Shown here in pieces: positions 45,302 through 64,000 of a stretch of DNA of 64,000 nucleotides. The DNA is from a virus. The stretch lies in IMG/VR virus record IMGVR_UViG_3300023179_000086, positions 1-64,000 of that record; one strand, given 5' to 3'. The position numbers and the translations under genes are program-made. The notes below the pieces were generated by a model that was not told the origin of the DNA, did no database searches, and saw only the letters and a list, made by a program, of their open reading frames with translations. The first letter of the stretch is position 1. Each line of letters starts with the position of its first letter.

Positions 45302-45686
45302 AAATAAACCTAATCTAGAATTTGACATTATACGCACACCTTGGATGGTTGAAAAAATACAAAACAGCAAGGTGTATGCCCAAAATTTGTACGCAGCAAT
45401 ATGTAATAATCGTTTTTTTAAATTAGATGATTCTTTTGCCATCATTAAAGATGAACAAAATTGGTCAGCATCTTGGAGATATGCAGGACAAATTGTTTCA
45501 AACTTAAGGATAGGAGAAGATTACCTTGATTATTATTGCAGTGGTATACATTGGCTAGATAATCATTCTAATATTTCATCTGCCTATACTACAGCAGTTA
45601 GTGGATTTGTTGAAGAAAGTATGGTAACCGATGAAATAAGAGATGATTTATTAAAATTAGGATGGATGGTAAAATCATATGATTAA
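45291..45686 (+). CDS. Conserved phage protein, 131 aa
   Basis: RTPWMVEKIQNSKVYAQNLYAAICNN, read with SASWRYAGQIVSNLR and DYLDYYCSGIHW, is a pattern I recall as a widespread unknown in tailed phages. It overlaps the membrane protein gene before it and ends in convergent overlap (four bases) with the first reverse-strand gene of the metabolic island. Confidence 0.7.
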   Translation: MDIKNKPNLEFDIIRTPWMVEKIQNSKVYAQNLYAAICNNRFFKLDDSFAIIKDEQNWSASWRYAGQIVSNLRIGEDYLDYYCSGIHWLDNHSNISSAYTTAVSGFVEESMVTDEIRDDLLKLGWMVKSYD

Positions 45687-46591
45687 AATAAATCATTATA
45701 GTTTGTTGTACTTCCAATAATATTTCCAATTATATTTCCCCAAGATATTGAATTTTTAGTTTCGGGTAAAATATAAGATATAATTTTGTGTTTTTCATGA
45801 TTAAATATATAACTTGGCAAATTATCCCACCCATAACTTCTTGTTCTTAATTCAAATTTACCTAATCCTAAACTATTATAAATTTTTTGTTTCAGTACAG
45901 GAACTAGTGCATGCCCATTAAAATTATTAAAAAAATTATCTTTATGTGCATTTAAAAGTATAGAAACACTGTCTATACTATTACCTAACATGTTTCCAAT
46001 CCCATTTATACTCTTTTCTTTCATATATAAATCATAACATTGATAATCATATTTAAATGGACTTAATAAAGGTTTAGTAATCCAAGGCCATGGATAATCT
46101 CCTCCCAATATTGGATATGTATGACACTTTTCTATTAACCAAAAATGACTAGCCACATGAAATTGGTTAATTTTATATATTTTTAAATAATTTAGATATT
46201 GAAAATTATTAAAAAACTTTTCAATATCTAAATCAAAAAAATATTGTTTTAAATGGTTTTCCCTACAAAATTTTTCACTATAATACAAATCAACTATATT
46301 AATAGGATATCCATTTTTTATTAAACGAAGTGTAATTACACTAGTTGGTATTTTTTGTGTAATTAAAAACTTTAACACTAGTTCACTATCAAGTCCTCCA
46401 CTATATAATAATTCACAAGTTCCTCTATAGTCGCCTAAGTTTTTGTAAAATGCTTCAGTAATATTTTTAGATGTTATTTCTTGATCACGGATCTCGCAAT
46501 GATAAGTTGCTGAATGAGTTGAGTTATAGTAATTGTGTGTATGTTTACAAAATTCTCCAATACCACTAAACCAAATATTATTAGTATCCAT
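45683..46591 (-). CDS. PP-loop ATPase, asparagine-synthase-like (copy 1)
   Basis: I use the ATG at 46591; the longer open frame would run through the promoter region and over the divergent gene. The 302 aa product has the PP-loop signature SGGLDS at residues 64-69 in CELLYSGGLDSELVLKFL. It lacks the N-terminal Cys of a glutaminase domain. Asparagine-synthase-like enzymes adenylate a carboxylate and join it to an amine. Here it may use ammonia or another amine to form an amide. N-terminal layout resembles the copy at 50669. Confidence 0.75.
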   Translation of the reverse strand: MDTNNIWFSGIGEFCKHTHNYYNSTHSATYHCEIRDQEITSKNITEAFYKNLGDYRGTCELLYSGGLDSELVLKFLITQKIPTSVITLRLIKNGYPINIVDLYYSEKFCRENHLKQYFFDLDIEKFFNNFQYLNYLKIYKINQFHVASHFWLIEKCHTYPILGGDYPWPWITKPLLSPFKYDYQCYDLYMKEKSINGIGNMLGNSIDSVSILLNAHKDNFFNNFNGHALVPVLKQKIYNSLGLGKFELRTRSYGWDNLPSYIFNHEKHKIISYILPETKNSISWGNIIGNIIGSTTNYNDLF

Positions 46592-46610
46592 AAAATTAAT
46601 AAATATCTTA
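46592..46610 (+). promoter_or_regulatory. Divergent intergenic promoter region with late-type box
   Basis: Only 19 bases separate two divergent genes. AATAAATA at 46598-46605 serves the rightward gene (ATG 46611). The reverse strand reads AAGATATTTATTAATTTT, with no clear octamer. No Shine-Dalgarno fits in either leader. Confidence 0.45.
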
Positions 46611-47222
46611 ATGATTATATTTACTCCAATTAATTTGCCTATAGTAAAACCTGATAGTTGGGATATATTTTGGAATATTTGGAATAAACACAGTCGAATA
46701 TTAGTTAAAGAAAAAATTAATACTAAAACTACCCCTGCATTAGTAGGAACTAAAAATGTTTGGATTGGTTTAGATATTTTTAAAAAATTTGACATTCCTT
46801 TAGTATATTCAGCACCTTATTTTGATATAAAAGATTCTTTACCAAACCTATTTGAGTCATTAAATAATTTATGCACTAATTTACATACTATAAGATTAGT
46901 TCAAAGTATTACGGATTTTGTGGCACATACGGATGATGACTTAGATAAATGGAGTTTAAGAGCTTTTTTTCATGGGGAAAATGTTTCAGAACAATGGTAC
47001 TTTACAAAACCATACGATAGAAATGGGCAAAGATATTATATTGAAATGCCAAACGACACTAATTGGTTTATGTATAATGACAAATATTGTTGGCATGGGA
47101 CAGATTTTGATTCTACCCGAAAAAAAATAATACTTCAAGTATTTTGTTTTGGATCACCTAATGTTGATTATTTGACTTCAAGCATAGAAAAATATAAATT
47201 ATATACTATAAAATTTTTATGA
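46611..47222 (+). CDS. 2-oxoglutarate/Fe(II)-type oxygenase (copy 1), 203 aa
   Basis: From ATG 46611 the candidate metal triad is H106-T-D108 (AHTDDD) and H162 (YCWHGTD). R170 is the likely 2-oxoglutarate anchor, followed by strand KIILQVFCFG. That is the double-stranded beta-helix order H-x-D...H...R. These enzymes hydroxylate, desaturate or halogenate unactivated carbons. The gene overlaps the desaturase start by four bases (ATGA), so the two are made together. Confidence 0.65.
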   Translation: MIIFTPINLPIVKPDSWDIFWNIWNKHSRILVKEKINTKTTPALVGTKNVWIGLDIFKKFDIPLVYSAPYFDIKDSLPNLFESLNNLCTNLHTIRLVQSITDFVAHTDDDLDKWSLRAFFHGENVSEQWYFTKPYDRNGQRYYIEMPNDTNWFMYNDKYCWHGTDFDSTRKKIILQVFCFGSPNVDYLTSSIEKYKLYTIKFL

Positions 47223-47977
47223 TTGTTGGATCTACTTCTACAAATATAGCTATTATTACAACATGCTCCGCAGTATTGTCAATATTAGGTTTTTTCCACT
47301 TTAATTTTACTATTAGTAATTGTTTAATTTTTATTTTAAGTTTTTACGTTTTAAATATTTTAGGTAATTGGTTAATGTTACATCGTTACTATTCTCATAA
47401 ATCTTTTGAATTTAAATACGATTTTATAAGAATAATTTTAACATTTTTCACTATTTTAAGTGCAAGAGGAAGTCCTATAGGTTGGGCATATATTCATAGG
47501 AAACACCATAGATTTAGTGATACAGAAAAAGATCCTCATAGTCCCCTACATTTAGGATTAAAATTGTTTGGTTTTCAACATTATAAAAGTATGGAATCAC
47601 AAAACATGGAACTATTTTTAGTTAAAGATTTAATGAATAAAGAACAAATTTTTATACATAAGTATTATGTATTGTTATTATTATTTTGTATTATACCTAT
47701 TAGCCTTTATAGTGTGGAATTATTTTATTTTTTATGGATACTACCAATTACCATTGTTCATTTAAGTCAAAATTTGTTTAATTATTTTGGACATACGTAT
47801 GGTTATAAAAATCATATTACTAACGATAATAGTAAAAACAATTTGTGGTTGTTTCCTTTACTATTAGGTGAAGCTTGGCATAATAATCACCATTATAATC
47901 CAAAATTAAATACAACAAAATTTTTAAAATATGAGTTTGATCCATTAAATATTTTTATACGGTTAGTAAAAAAATGA
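47219..47977 (+). CDS. Membrane fatty-acid desaturase, type A (copy 1)
   Basis: All three histidine boxes are intact: HRYYSH at 55-60, HRKHH at 93-97 and HNNHH at 221-225. Hydrophobic blocks at about 10-50, 75-90 and 145-185 give the usual four-helix topology with boxes facing the cytoplasm. The family uses a di-iron centre and O2 to put double (or triple) bonds into acyl-CoA, acyl-ACP or lipid chains. It is closest by eye to the desaturase at 61663 (shared RGSPxGWxYIHR and PxxVGLK/LGLK region). No ribosome site is visible; translation is coupled to the preceding oxygenase. Confidence 0.92.
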   Translation: MIVGSTSTNIAIITTCSAVLSILGFFHFNFTISNCLIFILSFYVLNILGNWLMLHRYYSHKSFEFKYDFIRIILTFFTILSARGSPIGWAYIHRKHHRFSDTEKDPHSPLHLGLKLFGFQHYKSMESQNMELFLVKDLMNKEQIFIHKYYVLLLLFCIIPISLYSVELFYFLWILPITIVHLSQNLFNYFGHTYGYKNHITNDNSKNNLWLFPLLLGEAWHNNHHYNPKLNTTKFLKYEFDPLNIFIRLVKK

Positions 47978-48489
47978 AAGAGTCTGATTTTTTTATAAAA
48001 TTAAATACAATGTCTAATATTACTGAAAATATTTTAAAAATAGTAAAATCATCTGATAATTCAATGTGGAAAGAATTATTTGGACTAACTATTTTTACTT
48101 TAGATATAGATCATTTTAAAAATGATAAAGAAATCTTTCAAGCTATTCAACATTTAGATTGTAAAACTAGGTTAAGCATTTTTAGAACTAATCCAAATAC
48201 TTGTTATGATTGGCATTTTGATAAAATAAGACATTCAGCTATAAACATGTTAATTGATGGATTTGATAGTTTTTGTGCATTTGGAGAATATTCTCTAGGA
48301 AATACGTATAAAAATATTTATAAATTACAATATGAACCAAATTATTACTATTTAATTAATGTAAAAAAAACACATTGTGTTTTTAATTTTTCCAATAATA
48401 TGAGATATATTTTAAGTATTGGGATCCCAAATACAACTTATGAGGATTCAGTAAATTATTTTGTTGAAAAAAAACTAATTACTTTATGA
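47974..48489 (+). CDS. 2-oxoglutarate/Fe(II)-type or beta-hydroxylase-like oxygenase (copy 2), 171 aa
   Basis: Candidate ligands are H81 and D83 in YDWHFDKIR, H134 in KKTHCVFN and R144 in NMRYILSIG. Spacing and the strand after the Arg fit aspartyl-hydroxylase-like jelly rolls. It starts in the desaturase stop (ATGA) and ends in the start of the acyltransferase-like gene. Substrate unknown. Confidence 0.6.
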   Translation: MKESDFFIKLNTMSNITENILKIVKSSDNSMWKELFGLTIFTLDIDHFKNDKEIFQAIQHLDCKTRLSIFRTNPNTCYDWHFDKIRHSAINMLIDGFDSFCAFGEYSLGNTYKNIYKLQYEPNYYYLINVKKTHCVFNFSNNMRYILSIGIPNTTYEDSVNYFVEKKLITL

Positions 48490-49070
48490 AAACTAGACAA
48501 TTATTAGGACCTGAAGACTTTGACAAGTTTAAATTATTATTAACATGTCATAAGAAAATTGGCGGCACACAAGCATTAAATATAGAAAGTTATGAATTAA
48601 TATATAGTAAATATTTTGACTTTAATGAAAACTATAAAATTTTTGGTTATTTTGAAAATAATATTTTAATTAGTTCAATAAGTTTAGCCTATAGAAATAA
48701 CAACACTAGGGGACGATATTGGATGATCTCAGGCTTATTTACTACTAAAAAATATAATATATTCTCTTTTAACAATCCTGAAATTGGATTATTAATTAAA
48801 AAAGCATTTGATATTGCGGAAGAAAATGCATACTATGAATACTATTATTGTATATCTGCACAAGTATCACGTGTATACGAAAGACAAATTGACAAAAATA
48901 ATTATATACCATTACAAAGATATGATAGAATTTCTCTAGATATTGTCCCAAAAAATACTGTACCATCTATAGACCTCTATTTTAAATTAATGGGCGGTAA
49001 AACAAAACCTCATGATATTATAATTAAAAAAAGAGTTTTACAAGAACAATTTCGTAAAAAAATTATTTAA
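48486..49070 (+). CDS. GNAT-like acyltransferase-fold protein (copy 1), 194 aa
   Basis: The order of strands YKIFGYFENNILISSISLAY, then RYWMISGLFTTKK, and the helix EIGLLIKKAFDIAEENAYYE suggest a GNAT fold. The segment YYYCISAQVSRVYERQIDKNN parallels YYSFYSRRDLKHQRALDKVW in the protein at 53380, so they seem related. It could transfer an acyl chain to an amine, which would suit a lipid-amide pathway, but the acetyl-CoA-binding loop is not clear. Fold call is tentative. Confidence 0.45.
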   Translation: MKTRQLLGPEDFDKFKLLLTCHKKIGGTQALNIESYELIYSKYFDFNENYKIFGYFENNILISSISLAYRNNNTRGRYWMISGLFTTKKYNIFSFNNPEIGLLIKKAFDIAEENAYYEYYYCISAQVSRVYERQIDKNNYIPLQRYDRISLDIVPKNTVPSIDLYFKLMGGKTKPHDIIIKKRVLQEQFRKKII

Positions 49071-49079
49071 TTTAGTAAC

Positions 49080-49087
49080 AATAAATA
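49080..49087 (+). promoter_or_regulatory. Late-type promoter inside the island
   Basis: AATAAATA lies just before ATG 49093 in the only non-overlapping gap of this operon. The leader would be nearly absent. Confidence 0.45.
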
Positions 49088-49092: not shown

Positions 49093-49869
49093 ATGAAAAA
49101 CTTTTTTGCAAGCAGCACATTGGGTGCACAGATTTTTTTTGTAATTTCTTTAGTAAGTATTTTTTTTGCTACAATACTTTATGGATTTACAATAAAAGAA
49201 CTAGGATTAATAATCTTGGGTTATTTTTTGTATGGCTGTTTAGGAGTGGTAATTACCTTTCATCGATATCTAACTCATAATAGTTTTAAGACACATTCAT
49301 TTATTGTTAAATTATTTTCTATTTTAGGGTGTTTTTCGGGTACAGGAAGTCCTTTAGCGTGGGTGGCAATACATATAAATCATCATCTTAAAAGTGATAA
49401 ACCTGATGACCCACATAGCCCATATTATAGGGGATTTAAAATTTTCACTTTGGATTATGTTGATAATGTTAACATAGATACAAAATGGCGTATGCGCTCT
49501 CTAGTAAAAGATAAATTTCAACAGTTTTTACATCGTTATTATTTTTTAATAAATTTAATTTATAGTATAGTATTGTTTATGTTGGGTGGGATGTACCTAG
49601 TTATATTTTTTCATTGGGCACCTGCAGCACTCACAGCAATTATGAGTAATGTAGTTAATTATTTCGGACACAAACCCAATTGGCTTGGGAGTTTTAGAAC
49701 ATATAATATTAATGATCAAAGCGTAAATAGTTGGTTGTGGGCTATACCAAGTTGGGGAGAAGCATGGCATAATAATCATCATCGATTTCCTAAACGTAGT
49801 TATTTTGGAGAAAAATGGTATCAAGTAGATATATCAGGATTTTTAATTAAACTTATATCAATAAAATAA
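49093..49869 (+). CDS. Membrane fatty-acid desaturase, type B (copy 1)
   Basis: Histidine boxes are HRYLTH at 57-62, HINHH at 94-98 and HNNHH at 226-230, all intact in 258 aa. The segment IPSWGEAWHNNHHRFPKR and the ending GEKWYQVDISG match the desaturase at 60264 nearly residue for residue, and box positions are the same. It likely acts on the same class of acyl substrate at a different position or step. It is followed after six bases by the Rieske oxygenase gene. Confidence 0.93.
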   Translation: MKNFFASSTLGAQIFFVISLVSIFFATILYGFTIKELGLIILGYFLYGCLGVVITFHRYLTHNSFKTHSFIVKLFSILGCFSGTGSPLAWVAIHINHHLKSDKPDDPHSPYYRGFKIFTLDYVDNVNIDTKWRMRSLVKDKFQQFLHRYYFLINLIYSIVLFMLGGMYLVIFFHWAPAALTAIMSNVVNYFGHKPNWLGSFRTYNINDQSVNSWLWAIPSWGEAWHNNHHRFPKRSYFGEKWYQVDISGFLIKLISIK

Positions 49870-49875: not shown

Positions 49876-50682
49876 ATGTTTTTAGCTCACATTAACTCAG
49901 TAAAACCTAATTCATATTATGTATTAGATCAATTTAACAAAAAAAAAGTTCTTGTAAATTCAGATAAATTTAAATTAATTTCAAATATTTGTCCACATCA
50001 AAATAGTTTAATATCATCTACTGATGGATCAGGTATTAGAGTATGCCCGTATCATAATTGGTCTTTTACAATAGATGGACAATCTATATCTTCAGGTAGA
50101 ACAGAATATTATTGCAAAAATAAAATTAACTTAAAAGAAGAAAACGTTTATTTATGGAATGGATTATTGTTAAGCTCAGATGTTGACTTTTACATTACTG
50201 AAAATTTTGACAATATGGTTTTGATAGAAAATCGAATTGATGTTGTAAAAGCTGATTATCGTATTATTATGGATTTATTTTTAGATGTTGATCACATTCC
50301 ATCTGTGCATAAAGGGGTTTATGATAAAATTGGAATAACAAATTTAAATGTAATGTGGAGTTATTATAACAATGGCAATGTTCAAAAAGTGGATCGAAAT
50401 GCATTGTGGATTGCAATTTATCCATATACAATGATTGAATGGCAATACGGAGCATTATTCATTACCGTCGCTATCCCTAATGGAAATAAATCAAATGTCC
50501 ATATATTTAAATATACAGATAAACAAAATATTGATAAATGGAAATTAAATGAAGATGTTTGGGAAACAGCTTGGTTGCAGGATAAAACACAAGCAGAATT
50601 AATTACTGAATTTCCAAAACATAATCTAGAAACACAAAAAATACATTTTAGGAATTTTTTAAAAGAAAATGGAATTAATTAA
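49876..50682 (+). CDS. Rieske-type non-haem iron oxygenase, 268 aa
   Basis: The [2Fe-2S] site is C39-P-H41 (ICPHQN) with C57-P-Y-H60 (CPYHNW), the standard spacing. The catalytic iron site is FLDVDHIPSVH, with H140 and H145 and Asp bridging residues before them. Such enzymes oxygenate rings, N-methyl groups or alkyl chains and need a reductase, which is not in the window. 268 aa is short for the family. Its end overlaps the next PP-loop gene by 14 bases. Confidence 0.88.
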   Translation: MFLAHINSVKPNSYYVLDQFNKKKVLVNSDKFKLISNICPHQNSLISSTDGSGIRVCPYHNWSFTIDGQSISSGRTEYYCKNKINLKEENVYLWNGLLLSSDVDFYITENFDNMVLIENRIDVVKADYRIIMDLFLDVDHIPSVHKGVYDKIGITNLNVMWSYYNNGNVQKVDRNALWIAIYPYTMIEWQYGALFITVAIPNGNKSNVHIFKYTDKQNIDKWKLNEDVWETAWLQDKTQAELITEFPKHNLETQKIHFRNFLKENGIN

Positions 50683-51580
50683 AAATAATTATTTGTATGG
50701 TACAGGAAATGGTACAACATGGCACGTTAATATTGATCCTCCTACACGCAAGGTAAAAACATATTTTGAAGAAACTTTAGAAGCTGTAAAATATGTTTAT
50801 GAAAATAAAACAGGTAAGTTTCAAGTTTTATTTAGTGGAGGACTTGACAGCCAATATGTATGCGAAGTATTACTATATTTGGGAATGGAATTTGAAATAA
50901 TAATTATTGAATTAAAAAATAATAAAAATGAAATTCTTAATATGCATGATATTAAATATGCATATGAATTTTGTAATTTTAAAAACATTACTCCAACCAT
51001 ATACGATTTGAATTTTGAACAGTTTATCGATACAGATAAAAACATACAAATAGCAGAATCAGTTCAATGTTGTTCGATAGCCATCCCTGCGACAATGTAT
51101 GTAGCTGAAAAAATGGATGGTTTTACATTATTGGGCAATGATCCACCCTATATAAAATATGTACCTGAAAAAAATTATTGGGCATTACAAGAATTAGAAT
51201 ATATTCATAGTTTATTACGATATTATGAAAAATTTAATTTAAATGGTTGTCCTTTTTTATTATCTTATACATCTGAAATGATGCTTTCTTTTTTAATTGA
51301 TCCAACAATTATGAAATTAGGAATGGGTATGATATTAGGTAAAACAGGTAGTAATTCAAGTAAATCGTATGTATTTAATAATGGATCAGGTTTTAATATG
51401 CCTGGTTATGACTTTGTAACCAAATCACGTATAAAATATACAGGATATGAAGAAATTTATCAATCTAATCTAATGAATCATCCAAATTTGCAAATATTTA
51501 AACAATACAGAGAAAAGTGGAATGGAGAATATCTTGAAAATTTTTCAGATGTAATTAATAGATTATCGATAAATCAATAA
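50669..51580 (+). CDS. PP-loop ATPase, asparagine-synthase-like (copy 2), 303 aa
   Basis: The PP-loop SGGLDS lies at 56-61 in FQVLFSGGLDSQYVCEVLL. The first 50 residues align in layout with the copy at 45683-46591 and lack a glutaminase Cys. GFTLLGNDPPYIKY near residue 150 resembles the second conserved region of synthetases (LLGxDP). Likely activates a carboxyl as an adenylate and forms an amide. It is the last rightward gene of this operon. Confidence 0.75.
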   Translation: MELIKNNYLYGTGNGTTWHVNIDPPTRKVKTYFEETLEAVKYVYENKTGKFQVLFSGGLDSQYVCEVLLYLGMEFEIIIIELKNNKNEILNMHDIKYAYEFCNFKNITPTIYDLNFEQFIDTDKNIQIAESVQCCSIAIPATMYVAEKMDGFTLLGNDPPYIKYVPEKNYWALQELEYIHSLLRYYEKFNLNGCPFLLSYTSEMMLSFLIDPTIMKLGMGMILGKTGSNSSKSYVFNNGSGFNMPGYDFVTKSRIKYTGYEEIYQSNLMNHPNLQIFKQYREKWNGEYLENFSDVINRLSINQ

Positions 51581-51598
51581 TTAATTATTGATTTTTTT
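51571..51598 (+). terminator. Palindromic terminator spanning two convergent stops
   Basis: A perfect 24-base palindrome at 51571-51594 (arms AAATCAATAATT and AATTATTGATTT) covers the TAA of both convergent genes. Four more T follow on the + strand. The stem is AT-only, so it may be weak. Confidence 0.5.
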
Positions 51599-52744
51599 AA
51601 AATTTTCTACTTTTCCGATAAAGTAAGGTTTAATTTGTGTCATAAGACCTGTTTTACTTGAATTCAAGTATATTGAATCAATAGTTGAATAAAAATGTTT
51701 AGTATCAGATGTAATCATATCAAATACTCGTGTAGTGTTATGCAGATCATAAAACCATTGATCATGCTCTCCTAAAATTATTTTTGTTGGTTTTTCTGCT
51801 TGAAATATTTTAGTGTAAGTTGATGGATAAAGTATTGGAATAATGCTTCTTTCGTACTTACTATGTTTAATTCTTTTTTCTACATCGTTTAAAAATTTAT
51901 GATTTTCTGTATTAACCGTATATTTACTTACATCAGTTGTTTCATCTACTGCAGCACGTGCAACAGAATGAGCTTGTTTTATGAGCAAAGCTGTACAAGT
52001 TTTTGCCCAATAAAATGGAACATTGTTAACATTAGAATATTCTCGATCAAAAACGGGTCTTGCCACATTCAATGCCAAATCATTAAAAACCATATAAACT
52101 GAATTATTATCAATAGCAATTTTTGGTTTGTCTATCCCATATACAAACCCAATTTTTAATCCTAAATCTGCTAATTTTACTAAATGTTTTTGTCGCTCTA
52201 ATCTATATCTTGCAATTCCTGAAGGATGAACCCAATCTTCGCTTCTATATAGCCAATCGTCAGTTTTAAAATCTAAAATATCTTGAAAATAATCATGTAA
52301 AGTAATTTTTACTTTAGGATACTCTTTTTCGATTTGTTTAATAAAAGGAATTTGAGCATAATAAGTTTCACTCATAGTGTTTTTATGAGAAGTATCAGTA
52401 TTATTATGTTTAAAGTTGCTAAGACCACTTAACGGTGCTGAAGCAATAATTTCATCAATATGTATATTGTTTCTTAAAAAAGATAAAGCAACATTTCTAC
52501 TATCTGCGCCACCACTGCAAAATACTGCTAGATAATCATAGTTATCTCTAAGTTCTTTTGCTCGTTGCTCATATAATACATGTAGGGAAGTATCAGGTTC
52601 GATAGTCCAATTTACTTTAGAATATTCTTTATCATTAAAATACCATTCTATGTTATATTTATATGGATTTGCTGCAAGAACGGCATCTATTTTATGTAAA
52701 AAAAATTGATTATTTACTTTATAAAATGAATCGTTTTCAATCAT
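51581..52744 (-). CDS. PP-loop ATPase (copy 3, divergent), 387 aa
   Basis: The PP-loop reads SGGADS at 77-82 (YLAVFCSGGADSRNVALSFL), with Ala in place of Leu, as in some tRNA- and deazapurine-pathway relatives. It is longer than the other two copies and has a distinct C-terminal region with EHDQWFYDLHNT. Activation of a carboxyl or amide formation is the family-level inference. It is the promoter-distal end of a long reverse-strand run. Confidence 0.7.
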   Translation of the reverse strand: MIENDSFYKVNNQFFLHKIDAVLAANPYKYNIEWYFNDKEYSKVNWTIEPDTSLHVLYEQRAKELRDNYDYLAVFCSGGADSRNVALSFLRNNIHIDEIIASAPLSGLSNFKHNNTDTSHKNTMSETYYAQIPFIKQIEKEYPKVKITLHDYFQDILDFKTDDWLYRSEDWVHPSGIARYRLERQKHLVKLADLGLKIGFVYGIDKPKIAIDNNSVYMVFNDLALNVARPVFDREYSNVNNVPFYWAKTCTALLIKQAHSVARAAVDETTDVSKYTVNTENHKFLNDVEKRIKHSKYERSIIPILYPSTYTKIFQAEKPTKIILGEHDQWFYDLHNTTRVFDMITSDTKHFYSTIDSIYLNSSKTGLMTQIKPYFIGKVENFKKINN

Positions 52745-52751: not shown

Positions 52752-53378
52752 TTAAATATGTGTTCGTGATTTCATGGGATTATGTTCATCTCTTGGCCCA
52801 TCTTCACTATCGGGATGAAAAGCTACTAAACTCATATGGCTATTATTAGTTTTGAATCTATGTCTAGCATATCTATCTAAAATAAATACATCACCTTTTT
52901 CTAAATTGAATTTTTCATCTGTTGTTTCAGCAATACCACGTCCTGATGTAATAAATCCTATCCTTAAACTTGGATGTGTGTGAAAAGTTTGATTAATATT
53001 TTTTGGGAAATATAAATAATTTAGACAAGGATCACCATTTCTAGGCGGACTTATAATATTACTGTTGCTACAACCATCAATATAAGATAAATTACCCACT
53101 AAACTTGCATTTAAAATTGCCATATATTGTTCAGCAAAACAGAAACCTGGCATTTCGATGACCATTCCACCCGTAATATCATTAAGGTTAAATTCTTTTG
53201 TCGTTGTTACAGTAAATAATGAATTTTTAATATCAAAATCTTCGCTAATAAAACTTCCAAATCCTACAATAAATCTTGAATATCCGCAATCATAAAATCT
53301 TAGATTCTCACTCAATGGTATAAGATTTATTACAAAACGATCTCTTATTTGTATTGATGATTTTATTATTTGAAACAT
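52752..53378 (-). CDS. Cupin-domain protein, 208 aa
   Basis: The cupin core is FHTHPSLRIGFITSGRGIAE (H133 and H135), then LEKGDVFILDRYARHRF with H173 as third ligand. A C-terminal SLVAFHPDSEDGP follows, a phrase common in cupins. The N-terminal 120 residues are a second domain of unknown type. It could be a metal-dependent oxygenase or isomerase in the island pathway. Confidence 0.75.
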   Translation of the reverse strand: MFQIIKSSIQIRDRFVINLIPLSENLRFYDCGYSRFIVGFGSFISEDFDIKNSLFTVTTTKEFNLNDITGGMVIEMPGFCFAEQYMAILNASLVGNLSYIDGCSNSNIISPPRNGDPCLNYLYFPKNINQTFHTHPSLRIGFITSGRGIAETTDEKFNLEKGDVFILDRYARHRFKTNNSHMSLVAFHPDSEDGPRDEHNPMKSRTHI

Positions 53379-56159: not shown

Positions 56160-56746
56160 ATTGAATATTTTTTAATTATTGTATAATAAATTTTTTCATC
56201 AAAAAAACCAATAGTGAAAGATAATCTATTTGTTTTTATATTATGCACACTGTGAATTATATCAGTACGCATGATATTCCAATTGTTTTCAGGAAATATG
56301 ATACTGTCTTGTCTTTCCAGTAAATTTAGATCCCAAACATGGGACCAAGGAGATCTAATTAAATCATTACCAAATTCTTTCCACCATAAAGTTTCAACAT
56401 TTGATCCACCTGTATTAAGAATAAAACTTATACAAAAAGGTCCACGAACTTTACCATCTGTATGAGGATGTAATTGACTTAATTCATTACTATAATTTTT
56501 AATACTTTGAAATCCTATATTAAAATTTGTTTGATTAAATTCTGGGATTATTTCCTTTACATAGTCTATGTATTGATTTTCTAAAGGCCATCTTTTATAT
56601 ACAGCATCATTAACTTCAGTTTTATCAATTTGTAATATTTTTTTATTGCTAATTGCCTGCATATGATCTCCAACAATAGCATTTTCAATTCCATTCCTCA
56701 AATTTGTTGGCAAGGTTGGTAAATTTAAAAGAGCAAATAATTTCAT
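56156..56746 (-). CDS. 2-oxoglutarate/Fe(II)-type oxygenase (copy 3), 196 aa
   Basis: The metal-binding motif is H95-T-D97 in QLHPHTDGK, with H165 or H168 in DIIHSVHNI and R174 in NRLSFTIGFF as the 2-oxoglutarate anchor. FCISFILNTGGSN and LLERQDSIIFP fit strands of the jelly roll. It is sandwiched between two desaturases with four-base overlaps on both sides, so it should act in the same pathway, likely hydroxylating the acyl chain or head group. Confidence 0.75.
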   Translation of the reverse strand: MKLFALLNLPTLPTNLRNGIENAIVGDHMQAISNKKILQIDKTEVNDAVYKRWPLENQYIDYVKEIIPEFNQTNFNIGFQSIKNYSNELSQLHPHTDGKVRGPFCISFILNTGGSNVETLWWKEFGNDLIRSPWSHVWDLNLLERQDSIIFPENNWNIMRTDIIHSVHNIKTNRLSFTIGFFDEKIYYTIIKKYSI

Positions 56747-57510
56747 ATTTTAATTAAAAAGTATTTTATAAAATATCCTGGAAGATCCCATTCATATTTT
56801 TTCACTGCATAATATGGACTTTTACTATCGGCATGATGATTATTGTGTAGCCCACTACCTAACATTAAAATATTTACTAAAGTATTGTTCTTACTATCAT
56901 CTTTTGTATCAAAATTCCTATAACCCCATTTATGGCAGACTATGTCTATAAGTAAACTACTAGTATGAAAAGTCCAGACTGCACTTGCGCTTATTAGAAA
57001 AACAGCAATTCTAATGTCTATTATAGCTAATGTAAAATATATTATTGTAACAATTAAAAAATAATACTTATGAAAAAATAAGTGCCAAGGTTCAATCGCT
57101 AAATCTTTAACAAGTTTAGGACTAAATTTAACTGGGATCCAATTAACCAACCAAATATTATACCATTTGTAATGCCTAGGACTTTGTGGATCTTTATTTG
57201 TATCACTATATCTGTGATGTATTCTATGTGTTCCTACCCATCCATAACTACTGCCCAAACAATTCAAACTACCTAATACAAGTAGAATTCTTTCTTTCCA
57301 CAGTTGAGTTTGAAAACTTCTATGTGCAAATAATCTATGAAATCCAATTTCACCACCGATTTTTCCAAATAGAATCCATCCAAGCAAGGATACCCACAAC
57401 CAACCCCAATCCAAATCTAAATAAAATAGTGATAACAATGCTAAATGATGAAATACAATTAATATTTTAAATTGTATGTCCATATTTGGTTTTTTAATAT
57501 TATTAAACAT
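56743..57510 (-). CDS. Membrane fatty-acid desaturase, type C (copy 1), 255 aa
   Basis: Histidine boxes are HRLFAH at 58-63, HRIHH at 95-99 and HNNHH at 222-226. Shared stretches with the desaturase at 58267 include GKIGGEIG before box 1, LLxLGSLN between the boxes, and DIVCHKxGYRN and GSGLHNNHHA around box 3. The two are a clear pair of duplicates. The gene begins one base inside the end of the AspH-like gene. Confidence 0.93.
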   Translation of the reverse strand: MFNNIKKPNMDIQFKILIVFHHLALLSLFYLDLDWGWLWVSLLGWILFGKIGGEIGFHRLFAHRSFQTQLWKERILLVLGSLNCLGSSYGWVGTHRIHHRYSDTNKDPQSPRHYKWYNIWLVNWIPVKFSPKLVKDLAIEPWHLFFHKYYFLIVTIIYFTLAIIDIRIAVFLISASAVWTFHTSSLLIDIVCHKWGYRNFDTKDDSKNNTLVNILMLGSGLHNNHHADSKSPYYAVKKYEWDLPGYFIKYFLIKI

Positions 57511-58286
57511 TATAAAAAATTACCATTGTAGGATGAAATTGATTTTTCAATCAGTTTTTCTAATTTTGGATTATCTCTTGTGTCATTGTATATAAGAACA
57601 TCAAATCTATGTTCATTACTATAGTTTTTATACGAATGTTGGTGATAACTATTTAAAAACCAAATTTTTTTTATAGATAAATTCTCAACAAAATATCTAC
57701 TATCATTTTGATAATATTCTAAATCTTTAAAATGATAGCGATCTTCATGTACTTCTTTAGTAACAATATGAACTACTTTGCTATTAGTAATTATTGGAAT
57801 ATGCAGTATACATTGCTCAGGTGTATTATATTTTTTAATTAGTGGATCATTTTGATGACTATGCCATCCTAATGAATGTCCGCCTTCAGATTTAACTATT
57901 TTTGCCATTAACGGTTTATCTGTAATAGAGTTTATTAAGTTTAATAGTATTGGAAATCTTTCAGCAACTTCAGTATAATACCATTTTTGATCTTCAAGAG
58001 GCCATGAATAATATTCTTCTAACACTGTTTTTTCTTCGTTTTTCCATCTAGCAAAATGTTCTCTTACTATCGATGAACTTTTAAATTTATGAATTGTTGT
58101 CAATGCACAGTGTTTATATGAATTATGTAATTCTTTAAGAAAGGGTGTAAGTTCAAAGTATGGTGGATGGTAATCATACCAAACATTGTTTTTTAATACT
58201 TCATACTTTATACTTTCAAAATCAAAATTAATATCTAAAGTCATAAATGGTATGTTCTTAAGATGTTCAATTATTAGCTGTTTCAT
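57510..58286 (-). CDS. Aspartyl/asparaginyl beta-hydroxylase-like oxygenase (copy 4), 258 aa
   Basis: GGHSLGWHSHQND (H142/H144), then LHIPIITNSK and KIWFLNSYHQHSYKN with H217, and R227 in EHRFDVLIYND, follow the Asp/Arg/Pro hydroxylase pattern of a 2-oxoglutarate-dependent jelly roll. It overlaps the desaturase at 58267 by 20 bases and touches the one at 56743. The classic substrate is an amino-acid side chain, so an aminoacyl or peptide moiety in the product is possible. Confidence 0.8.
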   Translation of the reverse strand: MKQLIIEHLKNIPFMTLDINFDFESIKYEVLKNNVWYDYHPPYFELTPFLKELHNSYKHCALTTIHKFKSSSIVREHFARWKNEEKTVLEEYYSWPLEDQKWYYTEVAERFPILLNLINSITDKPLMAKIVKSEGGHSLGWHSHQNDPLIKKYNTPEQCILHIPIITNSKVVHIVTKEVHEDRYHFKDLEYYQNDSRYFVENLSIKKIWFLNSYHQHSYKNYSNEHRFDVLIYNDTRDNPKLEKLIEKSISSYNGNFL

Positions 58287-59043
58287 TTTTAATTAGTAAA
58301 TGTTTGATGATTAGGCCTGGGAGATCAAATTCATCACTTTTATGATTAAAGTAGGGTTCGTTTGGTCGGGCATGATGATTATTATGTAAACCACTACCAC
58401 CTGTTAGTATATTTACAATGAGATTATTTTTGCTCTGATCTTTTGTATTATAATTTCTGTATCCATACTTATGGCATACTATATCAATCAAATACGAACC
58501 AACATGGAATTGAATAACTGATGGTATAATAATTCCAAAAATTAATAATTTAAAATCTATAAATCCAAAAAGTAAAATTACTAAAAACGATAATGTAAAA
58601 TAATATTTGTGTATGAATCTATGCCATGGATCTTTAATTAAATCAGAGATTGATCGGGGATTTACTATAAACGGTTTCCACATAATTAACCATACTTTTA
58701 TAAGTGAATTAAAATAAGGACTATGTGGATCTTTATCGGTGTCGGCGGTGGCATGATGCACACGATGTACGCCACAAAAATGTAAACTACTCCCTACAAA
58801 ATTTAGACTTCCTAATATTAGTAATAACCGTTCTTTCCATTTATCTGTTTTAAAACTTTTGTGAGCAAATAATCTATGGTAACCAATTTCTCCCCCTATT
58901 TTACCTATAACAATGTAAGATAAAAACGTTATCAAAAAATAGTACCATTCTACATTTGATATAAAAAATGCTGTAATAAACAGAACATGTGTTATCAATA
59001 GTAAAAATCTAATTTTAGTTAATGTGCTTAAATGTAACGACAT
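58267..59043 (-). CDS. Membrane fatty-acid desaturase, type C (copy 2), 258 aa
   Basis: Histidine boxes are HRLFAH at 56-61, HRVHH at 93-97 and HNNHH at 220-224. It is the close relative of the copy at 56743, sharing GKIGGEIG, VCHKxGYRN and GLHNNHHA. It has FDLPGLIIKHLLIK at the end. It is separated from the upstream small gene by three bases. Confidence 0.93.
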   Translation of the reverse strand: MSLHLSTLTKIRFLLLITHVLFITAFFISNVEWYYFLITFLSYIVIGKIGGEIGYHRLFAHKSFKTDKWKERLLLILGSLNFVGSSLHFCGVHRVHHATADTDKDPHSPYFNSLIKVWLIMWKPFIVNPRSISDLIKDPWHRFIHKYYFTLSFLVILLFGFIDFKLLIFGIIIPSVIQFHVGSYLIDIVCHKYGYRNYNTKDQSKNNLIVNILTGGSGLHNNHHARPNEPYFNHKSDEFDLPGLIIKHLLIKNETANN

Positions 59044-59046
59044 TAT

Positions 59047-59418
59047 TTATAAGTTATATAAATTTTTAGCCTCTTTATCAGTAATATTATAAATTTGATA
59101 TATGAATTCAAATTTTTCAGGATGATTTTGAATACTTTTATTATCCTCATAAATTACGTCTAACTGAGTTTTACATTCTTGTGCAATCTCTTCCGACACA
59201 AATACTCTTTCAGTAACTAAAAGATGACTAGCTAAATATCTTTTAAATGCTTTTTGCGTACCATTTACTACATACGAATTGCATATTTCCATATACTTTA
59301 AAATATTATTTGGTTTAAAAATGTAAGGAAACAGAGCGTGTAAAGTTTCATCTACGGTACCTCTAAGAAGACTGTGGTCATTTATAACAGTTGTTGTTTT
59401 ATATACGCAATAACCCAT
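59047..59418 (-). CDS. Hypothetical protein with GIY-type start, 123 aa
   Basis: I place the start at 59418 because a longer frame to 59442 would begin inside the palindromic promoter, and AGGAA lies just upstream of 59418. It opens MGYCVYKTTTVINDHSLLRG, mildly like the first strand of GIY-YIG proteins, but the catalytic residues cannot be confirmed. It is first in the leftward operon from the palindromic promoter. Confidence 0.55.
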   Translation of the reverse strand: MGYCVYKTTTVINDHSLLRGTVDETLHALFPYIFKPNNILKYMEICNSYVVNGTQKAFKRYLASHLLVTERVFVSEEIAQECKTQLDVIYEDNKSIQNHPEKFEFIYQIYNITDKEAKNLYNL

Positions 59419-59433
59419 AAAAAAATTCCTATA

Positions 59434-59472
59434 ATATATCAATATTTATTCTACCGATAAATATTGATATAT
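59434..59472. promoter_or_regulatory. Perfectly palindromic bidirectional late promoter
   Basis: Arms of 16 bases at 59434-59449 and 59457-59472 are exact reverse complements (ATATATCAATATTTAT and its partner) around seven bases. Each arm carries ATAAATA pointing outward: GATAAATA at 59456-59463 to the right and AATAAATA to the left. It lies exactly between the divergent genes at 59418 and 59491. Confidence 0.75.
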
Positions 59473-59490
59473 TTATATTATAAAGTAAAG

Positions 59491-60267
59491 ATGTTTTATT
59501 CAAACGTTAAAAGCATAAAAATATTACAGGTTTTAACTACCATTATTACCTGCGGTTTACTTTTTTTAAATTTTAGTTGGTATTGGTGGAGTATATCAAT
59601 TTTTGTGTATTTTTTAACAGGTTGTTTAGGTATTACTATAACATATCATCGATATCTTTCTCATAAAGCATTTAAAATGCCCAAAATATTAGAATATATT
59701 TTTAGTTTTTTTGGTGCTATTGGTGGTACAGGGTCAACTATTGGATGGTTAGCAGTTCATAATGTTCATCACAAATATAGTGATAAAGATAAAGACCCAC
59801 ACAGTCCACATATCCTAGGTTTGAGATTAATGCTTACAAACTATAATTACAAATTTAACCCACTTGATGCTAAAGTATTGCTAAGAGATAAATTTCACAT
59901 TTTCTTACACCAATATTATAATCTAATATTAATAACATGGGCAATCTTATTAATATTAATAGATATAAAAATTTTTCTATTTGTATTCGTTGTACCAATT
60001 TTTTTACAGATTTGGGCAAGTAACATAAGCAATTATGCTAATCATTTGTATGGGTATAAGAATTTCGAAACAACCGAAGGCAGTAAAAATACATGGTGGG
60101 TAAGCGCAATTACTTGGGGAGAAGGATGGCATAATAATCATCATGCAGAACCATGGTCGTATACTTTTCAAAAAAAATGGTGGGAAATTGATATAAGTGG
60201 GTATATAATATATATAATGGTTTTACTGACGGGTAACAAAGCTAGCTTATATAATTCTAAATATTAG
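59491..60267 (+). CDS. Membrane fatty-acid desaturase, type D, 258 aa
   Basis: ATG 59491 is chosen over the frame start at 59464, which lies inside the promoter. Histidine boxes are HRYLSH at 53-58, HNVHH at 90-94 and HNNHH at 214-218. GGTGSTIGWLAVHNVHHKYSD is the box 2 region. The long end after box 3 (ISGYIIYIMVLLTGNKASLY) adds a hydrophobic tail not seen in the others. A single-gene rightward unit, in convergent overlap with the desaturase at 60264. Confidence 0.93.
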   Translation: MFYSNVKSIKILQVLTTIITCGLLFLNFSWYWWSISIFVYFLTGCLGITITYHRYLSHKAFKMPKILEYIFSFFGAIGGTGSTIGWLAVHNVHHKYSDKDKDPHSPHILGLRLMLTNYNYKFNPLDAKVLLRDKFHIFLHQYYNLILITWAILLILIDIKIFLFVFVVPIFLQIWASNISNYANHLYGYKNFETTEGSKNTWWVSAITWGEGWHNNHHAEPWSYTFQKKWWEIDISGYIIYIMVLLTGNKASLYNSKY

Positions 60268-61034
60268 TTATATTTTATAACTTTAATTACTAAACCACTA
60301 ATATCTATTTCATACCATTTTTCACCATAATACCAACGTTTAGGATAACGATGATGATTATTGTGCCATGATTCGCCCCAACTTGGTATAGCCCATACCC
60401 AATTATTAGCACTCCTATCGTTTAAATTATATCGTCTTGATCCACCAAACCAATTGGGCATATGACCTGAAAAGTTAACTATGTTACTCATAAACACCGA
60501 GAGTACAACAGGTGCCCAATGTAGAAATATCATTAAATACCATCCACCGATTAAGTATAATAACCCACTCCAACTAAGTAATATCAAAACATAATAACGA
60601 TGTAAAAAACGATGGTAAGGATCTGATATTAATTCACGCATGCGCCATTTTACAGAATGGTCCATGGGGTAACGATGAAAAAACAATTTCCAACCATAAA
60701 CGTATGGTGTATGTGGATCATCTTCTTTATCACTTCGTAAATGATGTTTTAAATGTATACTTACCCATACTATACTACTGCCTGTACCTGCCAAACATCC
60801 AAATAATGTGAATAATTTTATAATCCATGGATGTGTGTTATATGCTTTATGTGTGTGAAAACGATGAAATGCTACTACAATACCCAAACAAACGTATATA
60901 AAGTAACCTAATATAGTTAATCCTACTGTTTGCCATGTAACGCCATAGGTATAAAATGCCCATATACTAGCTACACAACTTGTTGCAAGTAGTGCTTGTG
61001 TAAAATTGTTATTGCTGACATACCATTTTTGCAT
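60264..61034 (-). CDS. Membrane fatty-acid desaturase, type B (copy 2), 256 aa
   Basis: Start at 61034 is preferred over 61064, because AATAAATACTAAC on the reverse strand immediately precedes it and the longer start overlaps the previous gene. Boxes are HRFHTH at 57-62, HLKHH at 94-98 and HNNHH at 224-228. It pairs with the gene at 49093: GTGSSIVWVSIH, KWRMRELISD, GHMPNWFGGSRRYNLND and SWGESWHNNHHRYPKR all have counterparts there. Its codons are somewhat less AT-rich than those of neighbouring copies. Confidence 0.93.
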   Translation of the reverse strand: MQKWYVSNNNFTQALLATSCVASIWAFYTYGVTWQTVGLTILGYFIYVCLGIVVAFHRFHTHKAYNTHPWIIKLFTLFGCLAGTGSSIVWVSIHLKHHLRSDKEDDPHTPYVYGWKLFFHRYPMDHSVKWRMRELISDPYHRFLHRYYVLILLSWSGLLYLIGGWYLMIFLHWAPVVLSVFMSNIVNFSGHMPNWFGGSRRYNLNDRSANNWVWAIPSWGESWHNNHHRYPKRWYYGEKWYEIDISGLVIKVIKYN

Positions 61035-61042
61035 GTTAGTAT

Positions 61043-61663
61043 TTATTGCTGTTCTTCCACCCATCTAATACTATTCCAATCAGGTTCATAACTCTCATCT
61101 ATTTTATGATAGACAACATATTGCTTAGTGTTATTAATCTTAAGTGGATAATCAACATGAAATTGACCATTGTAAAACAAGCTATTTACATTGCGTTTTT
61201 TCTGTATGCCTAAACCACTCCGTTTAAAATAAGGTATAAGTCGTTTATTATATTCATTAAATGTTAAACACAATGTCTTATAATTTCTTTGTTTTGCCCA
61301 CGCTAGTTGTAGTGGACATAGATGCCGACCAACTAAAAACTGTCCACGATATGATTTATTGACCCAAGTTCTTACACCACCAAGTGCAACATAAGGATCA
61401 AAATCTGATTTGTTTACCCCACTAATGGCAATCATTTCACCAAACTTTAATAAAGCAAATACATCACCATTATCTTGCTTAAATCGATTGCTATGATAAA
61501 TTAAGTACGGTAAGGTTGATGGGTTATTTCCCCAATCATCATCCCACATATTTATATGGCTTGGTTCATCCTTTTCTTGAAATGCATCAAAACAAAATTT
61601 AAGAATAAAATTTTTATGATCAACATGAAAATTATTGTCAAATATACTTAAAGTAGTAAGCAT
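61043..61663 (-). CDS. GNAT-like acyltransferase-fold protein (copy 3), 206 aa
   Basis: GDVFALLKFGEMIAISGVN, then RTWVNKSYRGQFLVGRHLC and the helix PLQLAWAKQRNYKTLCLTFN, followed by LIPYFKRSGLGI, give the GNAT order of strand, pyrophosphate-loop-like turn (R-G-x-x-x-G/R) and helix. This is the best GNAT match of the three. It starts in the stop of the desaturase gene at 61663 and probably transfers an acyl or acetyl group in the same pathway. Confidence 0.6.
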   Translation of the reverse strand: MLTTLSIFDNNFHVDHKNFILKFCFDAFQEKDEPSHINMWDDDWGNNPSTLPYLIYHSNRFKQDNGDVFALLKFGEMIAISGVNKSDFDPYVALGGVRTWVNKSYRGQFLVGRHLCPLQLAWAKQRNYKTLCLTFNEYNKRLIPYFKRSGLGIQKKRNVNSLFYNGQFHVDYPLKINNTKQYVVYHKIDESYEPDWNSIRWVEEQQ

Positions 61664-62418
61664 TATTTTTTAAGAAGTTTAATAATATTACCTGCAATAT
61701 CATATTCCCATGGCTGAACAGTTGTGGTATAGTTAGTACTGTTATGATGGTGATTATTATGCCAACCTTCCCCCCATAAAAACAAATTTAATAACCAACT
61801 ATTTGTACTATTGTCATTAGTTTCAAATGATTTATAACCATTACTATGAGGAACTAAAATAAATGCGGCTGCAGCAAAATGCGTTAAAATAACAGGGATT
61901 GCATAAAAATATATCATTGTTTTAATACTTATTATACTAAGTAAAGTTACCCATATTAAAATTATTAATACGTAATAATCATTTATAAAAACATGTTTTT
62001 TAGTTAACAGATCCTTTATATATTTTTTTTGTATAGTTTCTCCAAAATTTATCATGATAGGCATTAAAACTTTTAATCCAACATTTTTTGGATTATGTGG
62101 ATCATTAATAGTATCTGATTGTTTATGATGTAAACGGTGAATATAACTCCATCCTAATGGACTCCCACGAACTGATAATATAGCCACGATAGTAAAAAAA
62201 TGTTTTAATAAATTTGTTTTAAAAACAAAACTACGATGTGCATAGTAACGATGTAAACCAATTACAAACCCCAAACAACTGAAAATAAAATAACCTATAA
62301 TAATATTAAGTATATCAATTGTTGTTATATCATATGTAACCAATCCATAGATACTTAATAATAAAAAGGAACCATGTAAGATTGATAAATTTAATCCTGT
62401 TGGACGCAAATAATTCAT
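61663..62418 (-). CDS. Membrane fatty-acid desaturase, type A (copy 2), 251 aa
   Basis: Boxes are HRYYAH at 56-61, HRLHH at 94-98 and HNNHH at 220-224. RGSPLGWSYIHRLHHKQSDT and KDLLTKKHVFINDYYVLI have direct counterparts in the copy at 47219 (RGSPIGWAYIHRKHH and KDLMNKEQIFIHKYYVLL). It is the first gene of a leftward operon starting at the palindrome 62422-62442. Confidence 0.93.
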   Translation of the reverse strand: MNYLRPTGLNLSILHGSFLLLSIYGLVTYDITTIDILNIIIGYFIFSCLGFVIGLHRYYAHRSFVFKTNLLKHFFTIVAILSVRGSPLGWSYIHRLHHKQSDTINDPHNPKNVGLKVLMPIMINFGETIQKKYIKDLLTKKHVFINDYYVLIILIWVTLLSIISIKTMIYFYAIPVILTHFAAAAFILVPHSNGYKSFETNDNSTNSWLLNLFLWGEGWHNNHHHNSTNYTTTVQPWEYDIAGNIIKLLKK

Positions 62419-62421
62419 AAT

Positions 62422-62442
62422 AATATTTAGGTCCTAAATATT
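62422..62442. promoter_or_regulatory. Palindromic divergent promoter region
   Basis: AATATTTAGG (62422-62431), one base, CCTAAATATT (62433-62442) is a perfect palindrome in the 29-base gap between two divergent genes. Each arm carries CTAAATATT pointing outward, a variant of the late octamer. Confidence 0.5.
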
Positions 62443-62447
62443 TCAAT

Positions 62448-63914
62448 ATGCAAATAATACTTTTTACAGACGTAGCAGACACTATTGGTTATGGAAAATA
62501 TGCAGGTACATACAAATTAGCTACAGAATTACGATTACACAGCTACACTTGTCAAGTTATTGATGTGTTTTCTTATTATTCATGGGCACAACTTACATCT
62601 TTAGCAACCAAATTTATAACAAAAGATACTGTATTGGTTGGATTTAGTTGTACGCTAAGCGAAAAAAGAATACATGGTAAAGTATATAACTTTGGAATGG
62701 AGGATCAACGATTTGTAGATTTCCTTACTTATATAAAACAAATTAATCAAAATGTTCGTGTGGCCTTAGGTGGTGCAAGAATGAATAATATATGCCATTG
62801 GCAAGGTGTAGATTATGTTGTATTAAATAAAGCAGATCGAGCAATTATCGCTATTGTTGAACATCTTTTATACAAAAAAGAATTAATTACTCATCGTCAA
62901 AGTCCATCGTTTCTTGTAGATGGTAACGACTACCCATATAACCAAGAAGATTTTAGTCGTAGCCAAATTATTTTTGAACCTAATGATATCATTTTTCAAA
63001 ACGAAGCACTTCCTATTGAAGTTAGTCGTGGTTGTATCTTTCAATGCGCATTCTGTAGATACGATCACATCGGTAAAAAAATTGGAGAATGGCAAAAAAC
63101 TGCGGATACTTTACGCAACGAATTTCTTCGCAACTATGAATTATATGGTACAACGAATTACATGTTTAGTGATGAGTTAATTAATGAAAGTTTAGACAAG
63201 ATGAATTTTTTGTGTGAAGTAGTGAGTAGTTTACCATTTAAGTTGCAGTATACGAGTTACGCTAGGATTGATTTAATATGGCGATACCCTCAAATGCGTG
63301 AATTATTGTTAGAAAGTGGTGCTATTAGTTTGCAATTTGGTATAGAAACATTGAATGAATCAGTAGGAAAAAAGATTGGTAAAGGATTAGCTACACAAAA
63401 AATTAAAGATACTTTAAGTTATTGTGGTGAATTATGGAAAGATAAAATTATTATGGCAAGCAATTTTATTGTAGGGTTACCCAACGAAACTGAAGAAAGT
63501 ATTTGGAATACAGTAAATTATTTAGTAAGTGACGAATGTAAATTAGATATATTTGGATTTCTGCCATTGGCAATAAAAGTAGAAGATGATGGTAGAAAAT
63601 CAAGTAAAATAGATCGAGATCCAAAAAATTTTGGATATACTATTGTTGCAACAAATGATTGGGATAATGGGCACATGAAATATGAAGATGCTAAAAAATT
63701 AGTACACAGAATTTGGAGAGATCCAAGAGTTCAAAAAAAAGCTAAATTTGGGGCAGCAACTTGGATTGGGAGAATTATTAATCTAGGATATTCATTAGAG
63801 GAAATTTTTATCTTATTAAATGGAAATCTTACTCAACATGAACTATCAACTTTTTTTAAAGACAAAACACTTTCAAAAAAATTAGAATATTATAACAAAT
63901 TAATGGAATTATAA
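62448..63914 (+). CDS. Radical SAM enzyme with B12-binding-type N-terminal domain
   Basis: The 488 aa protein has an N-terminal Rossmann-like domain of the cobalamin-binding type (to about residue 145, with VLVGFSCTLSEKR and RVALGGARMN). The radical SAM site is C196-x3-C200-x2-C203 in SRGCIFQCAFCRYDH, binding a [4Fe-4S] cluster. SLQFGIETLNESV and NFIVGLPNETEES are typical later strands. The key DxHxxG cobalamin motif is not obvious, so cobalamin use is uncertain. Such enzymes methylate, rearrange or couple unactivated carbons. It runs rightward from the palindrome into the next, truncated gene. Confidence 0.88.
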   Translation: MQIILFTDVADTIGYGKYAGTYKLATELRLHSYTCQVIDVFSYYSWAQLTSLATKFITKDTVLVGFSCTLSEKRIHGKVYNFGMEDQRFVDFLTYIKQINQNVRVALGGARMNNICHWQGVDYVVLNKADRAIIAIVEHLLYKKELITHRQSPSFLVDGNDYPYNQEDFSRSQIIFEPNDIIFQNEALPIEVSRGCIFQCAFCRYDHIGKKIGEWQKTADTLRNEFLRNYELYGTTNYMFSDELINESLDKMNFLCEVVSSLPFKLQYTSYARIDLIWRYPQMRELLLESGAISLQFGIETLNESVGKKIGKGLATQKIKDTLSYCGELWKDKIIMASNFIVGLPNETEESIWNTVNYLVSDECKLDIFGFLPLAIKVEDDGRKSSKIDRDPKNFGYTIVATNDWDNGHMKYEDAKKLVHRIWRDPRVQKKAKFGAATWIGRIINLGYSLEEIFILLNGNLTQHELSTFFKDKTLSKKLEYYNKLMEL

Positions 63915-64000
63915 TGATACAAGAAAATAAACTCATTGGTTTTAGTAATGCGGAAACAACTTATTTTGCATACGAATCATTGCCATTGTGCGGCATTGGT
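63914..64000 (+). CDS. Start of an unidentified gene (truncated by window edge)
   Basis: ATG at 63914 overlaps the radical SAM stop (TAATG). The first 29 residues begin MIQENKLIGFSNAETTYFAY and run off the end. It is coupled to the radical SAM gene, so the island continues to the right. No family can be named from this length. Confidence 0.6.
   Translation, partial: MIQENKLIGFSNAETTYFAYESLPLCGIG

Follow-up and report, generated by a model that had tools for sequence, protein, structure and literature searches.

Bacteriophages are mostly thought of as carriers of single auxiliary genes rather than of pathways. The closest systems already known are single phage desaturases, rare phage bacteriocin clusters and one predicted metabolite cluster of a jumbo cyanophage. 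Single viral desaturases include the lipid desaturases of cyanophages (Roitman 2018, as cited in PMC11480375) and the Arctic viral fatty acid desaturases (vFADs), for which a role in membrane unsaturation has been proposed (PMC7300359). Phage-encoded biosynthetic gene clusters are rare and mostly specify bacteriocins in temperate phages (Dragos 2021, as summarised in PMC10452541), and the jumbo cyanophage S-SSM6a carries a predicted secondary-metabolite cluster with a halogenated product (Iyer et al. 2021, PMC7824862). Described here is an island of about 21 kb, rich in membrane desaturase genes, that occupies positions 45,683 to ~66,935 of IMG/VR record IMGVR_UViG_3300023179_000086 (termed here G000); the window analysed is the first 64 kb of this 73,399-base record, and coordinates are identical in both. 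The island is read, with a probability of about 0.58, as a phage-borne biosynthetic gene cluster specifying a modular acyl-tailoring pathway at a fixed locus of jumbo phages.

Like the single viral desaturases, the island places FA_desaturase proteins with three His boxes on a phage genome; those, however, occur as one or a few genes and are read as membrane adaptation, whereas here there are 2-11, they form phage-only clades, and they are linked to GNAT, PP-loop, oxygenase and ketosynthase (KAS) genes and, in sibling islands, to genes for an acyl carrier protein (ACP) and a holo-ACP synthase (AcpS). The S-SSM6a cluster is likewise a multi-gene phage cluster with 2-oxoglutarate (2OG) oxygenases, cupins and a predicted small-molecule product, but it features carbamoyltransferases, a halogenase and sugar/amino acid enzymes, whereas the G000 island appears acyl-based. 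The clusters of Dragos 2021 are also biosynthetic clusters on phage genomes; in contrast to those bacteriocin clusters, the present ones belong to T4-superfamily jumbo phages and carry oxidative acyl enzymes. An analogous oxidative/aminotransferase island lies at 53-72 kb of the record of Pelagibacter (SAR11) phage Mosig (MT647606; L053), with tail-fibre genes on one side and an epimerase gene on the other; it resembles the G000 island in its desaturase, Asp/Arg hydroxylase-type 2OG, N-acetyltransferase, dioxygenase and radical SAM-type genes but has a single desaturase (28% identity) and bears aminotransferase and carbamoyltransferase genes, and the accessible text of the Mosig announcement (PMC7892664) does not discuss it. 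Within the open-licence literature, where absence is not proof, desaturases go unmentioned in the texts of a comparative study of jumbo phages, of a review and of a large survey, and a cyanophage survey found ACP in 2 of 153 genomes.

Bacterial polyyne clusters combine several membrane desaturases with ACP and oxygenases and are defined by a fatty acyl-AMP ligase. Set side by side by description rather than by sequence, the island resembles them in its several membrane desaturases and its oxygenases; it differs in the defining ligase (PF00501), of which neither G000 nor most relatives show a match. ACP, which polyyne clusters carry, was not found in the G000 fragment and is present in siblings. 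Since nearly all relatives likewise lack an acyl-AMP ligase, this enzyme probably does not belong to the system.

Island genes were checked one by one by Pfam profile or motif, with further database and fold comparisons for some of them. The eight intact three-His-box desaturases claimed by a first-pass annotation of the window are borne out: all eight exceed the curated Pfam cut-off for FA_desaturase (PF00487), and the boxes HRxxxH, HxxHH and HNNHH are complete in every one. By family these proteins are membrane desaturases; activity on an acyl substrate is predicted. The core genes DES1 (47219-47977) and DES2 (49093-49869), together with DES6 (59464-60267), lie on the plus strand; DES3 (55344-56159), DES4 (56743-57510), DES5 (58267-59043), DES7 (60264-61064) and DES8 (61663-62418) lie on the minus strand. 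In a quick, midpoint-rooted tree they fall into phage-only groups: DES8 lies within the DES1 clade; DES7, a DES2 paralogue, lies in the DES2 clade, with DES6 beside DES2; and DES3-5 form a third group together with a KAS-bearing contig. The cassette DES5 - 2OG_4 - DES4 is common to G000 and one relative (L020), which carries a DES4 orthologue in the same order. The closest bacterial relative of DES2 is 33% identical, and its matches among 50,697 phage records are distant ones only (a desaturase match in Acinetobacter phage MD-2021a was set aside, its neighbours being ordinary bacterial genes).

With DES2 as the sole bait, about 34 close viral contigs were recovered, at 56-72% identity. In a set made up of 24 distinct loci and G000, 25 members contain desaturases, 24 the acetyltransferase-like protein GNAT3, 23 the PP-loop proteins PP2/PP1 and 18 PP3. 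When GNAT3 was the bait, desaturases lay within 10 kb in 65 of 72 loci (a set that includes some near-duplicate contigs), with exactly two in 45, and PP2 was present in 49; desaturase-baited loci mostly contain two desaturases as well, and in whole-record searches the number of FA_desaturase matches in a contig ranged from none to eleven. The conserved core, carried by about 70 further viral contigs, is one GNAT3 and usually two desaturases, often with PP2. None of the 50,697 phage records matched GNAT3, PP2, PP3 or the radical SAM protein. Purifying selection is shown by codon comparison: the median ratio of nonsynonymous to synonymous substitution rates (dN/dS) is ~0.1 for the desaturase, PP2, PP3 and radical SAM genes, with dS often near saturation.

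What favours an acyl pathway over other readings is that an ACP and a holo-ACP synthase are encoded beside desaturases in sibling islands. Several siblings do so, and both families are Pfam-confirmed; a module consisting of AcpS, a RimK-like ATP-grasp protein, a desaturase, a KAS, further desaturases and an ACP recurs in three contigs (two of them ~89% DNA-identical across the module), and ACP and AcpS also adjoin desaturases in contigs other than those three. G000 itself encodes a FabF-type ketosynthase (KAS; 53990-55204, minus strand) with both the N and C ketoacyl-synt domains (PF00109, 4e-26; PF02801, 2e-21; FabF, 2e-73), which aligns full-length with FabF structures and whose Cys-His-His triad, C161/H298/H331, is common to a sibling KAS at 30% identity; the description of a full KAS therefore holds. 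Its score against the NCBIfam fabF model (247.7 bits) is under the equivalog cut-off of 493.75 bits, and the protein is best classed, from its sequence, as a divergent FabF relative rather than a FabF equivalog. Used as bait against viral contigs it gave zero matches, and KAS matches in phage records resemble bacterial FabF, at <30% identity. The first-pass annotation had proposed a pathway to an unsaturated, oxidised lipid or fatty amide; this is partly supported, in that the acyl pathway stands as the best reading, with the product and an amide-forming step being predictions.

The DNA polymerase of G000 is 49% identical to that of phage Phosso and 43-46% identical to those of Atu_ph07 and 121Q-like phages (genomes of ~350-490 kb), which places G000, at the sequence level, among the T4-superfamily jumbo phages, as a partial genome. 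A 348,701-base relative (G013) is colinear with it through nrdA, nrdB, a large structural gene, the gene for the cell-wall hydrolase and the one after it, and has at the equivalent place a small island and then a 25-tRNA array; this island includes GNAT3, 2OG-type, radical SAM, DES1, 2OG_1, DES2, FA_hydroxylase, PP2, PP3, cupin-like and P450 genes. The cell-wall hydrolase-like gene (LYS; 44422-45069, plus strand), whose orthologue is at the matching relative position in G013 and other loci, marks the left boundary of the island in many relatives, and independent contigs repeat the order LYS - c7 - island. On the right, an array of nine tRNA genes begins just past ~66,935. GC content is slightly lower in the island than outside it (27.8% versus 31.7%), as might be expected of an assembly chimera joining phage and bacterial DNA near 45.7 kb; yet phage genes and tRNAs flank the island on both sides, the same order recurs in independent contigs, and close bacterial relatives of DES2 or PP3 were not found. 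Because G013 and the other contigs keep the same locus order, a chimeric join is very unlikely and merits next to no credence. The synteny search of viral metagenomes that had been suggested as a check thus agrees with the claim that the genes are phage-borne: the island is, as far as gene order can tell, a genuine phage feature, repeatedly reshuffled at a fixed locus of a jumbo-phage lineage.

Among the remaining island enzymes, profile searches likewise placed in their named families the Rieske-type oxygenase (49876-50682, plus strand; PF00355, E 9e-9), the cupin (52752-53378, minus strand; PF07883, E 2e-7) and the B12-type radical SAM protein (62448-63914, plus strand; PF04055), which resembles B12-dependent families (TIGR04479, 2e-19; TIGR04072, 1e-14), including PhpK-type methyltransferases and a lipid-biosynthesis family. 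The 2OG proteins match no Pfam family. Four 2OG/Fe(II)-type oxygenases had been called, and the motif HxD...H...R/K is retained in every checked member of their families; no known 2OG family profile matched any of them, and 2OG_1 has no convincing match in the PDB. For 2OG_1 (46533-47222, plus strand; likely start at 46611-46635) HxD...H...K is invariant in 17 relatives, and the motif is kept in 15 of 15 relatives of 2OG_2 (47974-48489, plus strand), in 7 of 7 of 2OG_3 (56156-56746, minus strand) and in 2 of 2 of 2OG_4 (57510-58286, minus strand). A fifth such gene with the motif, 2OG_5, begins in the window (63914-64000, plus strand) and ends past it at 64771 (L009:3914-4771). Sibling islands also carry FA_hydroxylase, cytochrome P450, nitronate monooxygenase/FabK-type (NMO) and peroxiredoxin/AhpD proteins; P450 family genes of jumbo-phage islands are located at G013:189877-191016 (L025) and L043:14285-15478. 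Rubrerythrin occurs in one desaturase-rich island (L073:656-1117) and weakly ferritin-like proteins in another (L269:10714-11613 and L269:14245-15207). A family of ~100-aa proteins (c5), to which Pfam gave no match, recurs in loci from the DES2, GNAT3, AcpS and PP3 scans, often beside cupins, P450 or AcpS.

Three PP-loop ATPases had also been called. PP2 (50669-51580, plus strand) is upheld by its profile, which matches PP-loop structures (MJ0690, 2e-7; NAD synthetase, 1e-5) as well as tRNA thiolases, QueC and TilS, and PP1 (45683-46795, minus strand) by clustering with PP2; for the divergent PP3 (51581-52744, minus strand) the call draws on an invariant SGGxDS motif (here SGGADS) and a weak fold match to carbapenam synthetase (CarA), from an AlphaFold2 (AF2) model with pLDDT 89. 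The 263-base overlap of PP1 with 2OG_1 is probably a start-codon artefact, as an ATG at 46591 gives PP1 302 aa, matching homologue length. Because the SGGxDS loop comes as early as residue 56 (PP2) or 77 (PP3), there is no room for the N-terminal glutaminase-type domain of asparagine or beta-lactam synthetases. PP3 has >500 viral relatives, and none was found among 84,980 bacterial and archaeal species genomes by a closer PP3 alignment set at pattern sensitivity, the PP2 and PP3 alignments being too diverse for that scan. In metagenomic phages, PP3-family genes very often lie near genes for solute-binding proteins (TctC in 48 of 79 loci, DctP in 31 of 79; neighbourhoods L093-L171); signal peptides can be made out by eye in the TctC copies read but not in the DctP copies read, and many of the 79 loci lack a desaturase inside the examined stretch. 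A 455-aa multi-pass membrane protein, transporter-like by eye, directly precedes PP3 in an ACP-bearing island (L108:6615-7982).

As for the three GNAT-like proteins, fold comparison supports GNAT3 (61043-61663, minus strand; 72 viral loci), whose AF2 model (pLDDT 88) matches GNATs in Foldseek and has a GNAT fold with a degenerate acetyl-CoA loop; GNAT1 (48486-49070, plus strand), a conserved family, and GNAT2 (53380-54003, minus strand), which recurs beside cupin and PP3, are by-eye calls that databases do not support. PaiA, a polyamine acetyltransferase, is the second-best fold match of GNAT3, and an S-adenosylmethionine decarboxylase gene sits within the G000 tRNA array (L009:9333-9689); together these are a weak hint of a polyamine substrate for GNAT3.

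The genes are tightly packed, though "nearly all overlapping by 1-20 bases", as first described, was too strong: within the window, 12 of 22 island junctions overlap, by 1-22 bases, and the others are gaps of 0-29 bases, with the sole exception of 139 bases ahead of DES3. A 131-aa protein with no assigned function (59047-59442, minus strand) is an open reading frame only. Extending the contig rightward carried the island on to ~66,935, adding the fifth 2OG-like gene and three more (an unassigned 187-aa gene, a kinase/nucleotidyltransferase-like gene and a final gene, also unassigned). The proposal that the product is made late in infection found no support, since T4-type late promoter motifs show no enrichment (16 observed, 24 expected); a sigma-70 scan was likewise uninformative. 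A known defence system is unlikely because PADLOC gave a weak radical SAM match only.

In the proposed pathway, an acyl chain would be carried on a host or phage ACP or on coenzyme A (CoA) and, where a KAS is present, extended by it. The membrane desaturases would introduce unsaturation at several positions; the 2OG, Rieske and cupin enzymes would hydroxylate or further oxidise the chain; and the B12 radical SAM enzyme might methylate it. GNAT3, the PP-loop ATPases or both (in siblings, ATP-grasp ligases) would then join the chain to an amine or amino acid. Swaps and duplications of tailoring genes would cause products to differ between phages. What results is most likely a small fatty amide or related lipid, unsaturated and oxidised, which alters the envelope or surroundings of the infected cell.

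Several observations count against such a pathway. Most relatives have two desaturases only, with neither ACP nor KAS, so that linkage to ACP may characterise only a specialised minority. The 73-kb G000 record, itself a fragment, yielded no ACP, phosphopantetheinyl transferase (PPTase), acyl-AMP ligase, ferredoxin or reductase; ACP was not found in G013 either, nor Fer2 ferredoxin in 16 records. The acetyl-CoA loop of GNAT3 (R/Q-x-x-G-x-G/A) is degenerate, with G at +3 in 1 of 24, the amide-forming step is a guess from fold class, and the prediction as a whole is made from genes. It is the prevalence of relatives with two desaturases and no carrier protein that makes membrane remodelling the main rival: desaturases would raise the unsaturation of host membranes via acyl-lipids or acyl-CoA, a role proposed for single viral desaturases (PMC7300359; PMC11480375), and the other genes would be unrelated cargo at a variable locus. 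This is possible but doubtful, inasmuch as membrane fluidity needs neither 8-11 desaturases, nor a dedicated sibling ACP/PPTase, nor tight linkage of GNAT3 and PP2.

The marked variability of the island across relatives is what an arms race predicts, and variable jumbo-cyanophage clusters have been interpreted (PMC7824862) as surface modification, in which lipid A, lipopolysaccharide (LPS) or another envelope component is altered and the attachment of competing phages blocked; here, however, the G000 island showed neither a glycosyltransferase nor a lipid A enzyme, and the sibling KAS, ACP and AcpS point to a free acyl chain, which leaves this explanation unlikely. That the PP-loop, radical SAM, GNAT and 2OG proteins instead modify phage DNA or tRNA would fit both the tRNA thiolase, QueC and TilS matches and the tRNA array adjoining the right end of the island, but is highly improbable: such chemistry has no use for membrane desaturases, KAS, ACP or FA_hydroxylase, and desaturases are the most constant island component. 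An acyl-tailoring pathway is thus preferred. A bolder version of it, tentative and on balance improbable, is that jumbo phages produce a class of acyl small molecules of their own, the ACP, the holo-ACP synthase, the ketosynthase and a diversified set of tailoring enzymes all being phage-encoded; that in many relatives the PP-loop enzyme is paired with TctC or DctP, a periplasmic solute-binding protein which would capture or sense the molecule; and that the product acts as a signal or weapon outside the infected cell.

The analysis adds large enzyme families that go mostly unrecognised by standard phage libraries, namely PP2, PP3, GNAT3 and the phage desaturases, and the island offers a defined gene set to express for new chemistry and for asking what phages gain from metabolites. 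If the acyl-pathway reading is true, viruses would, through a recurrent modular pathway with its own carrier protein and activating enzyme, count among the makers of specialised lipids.

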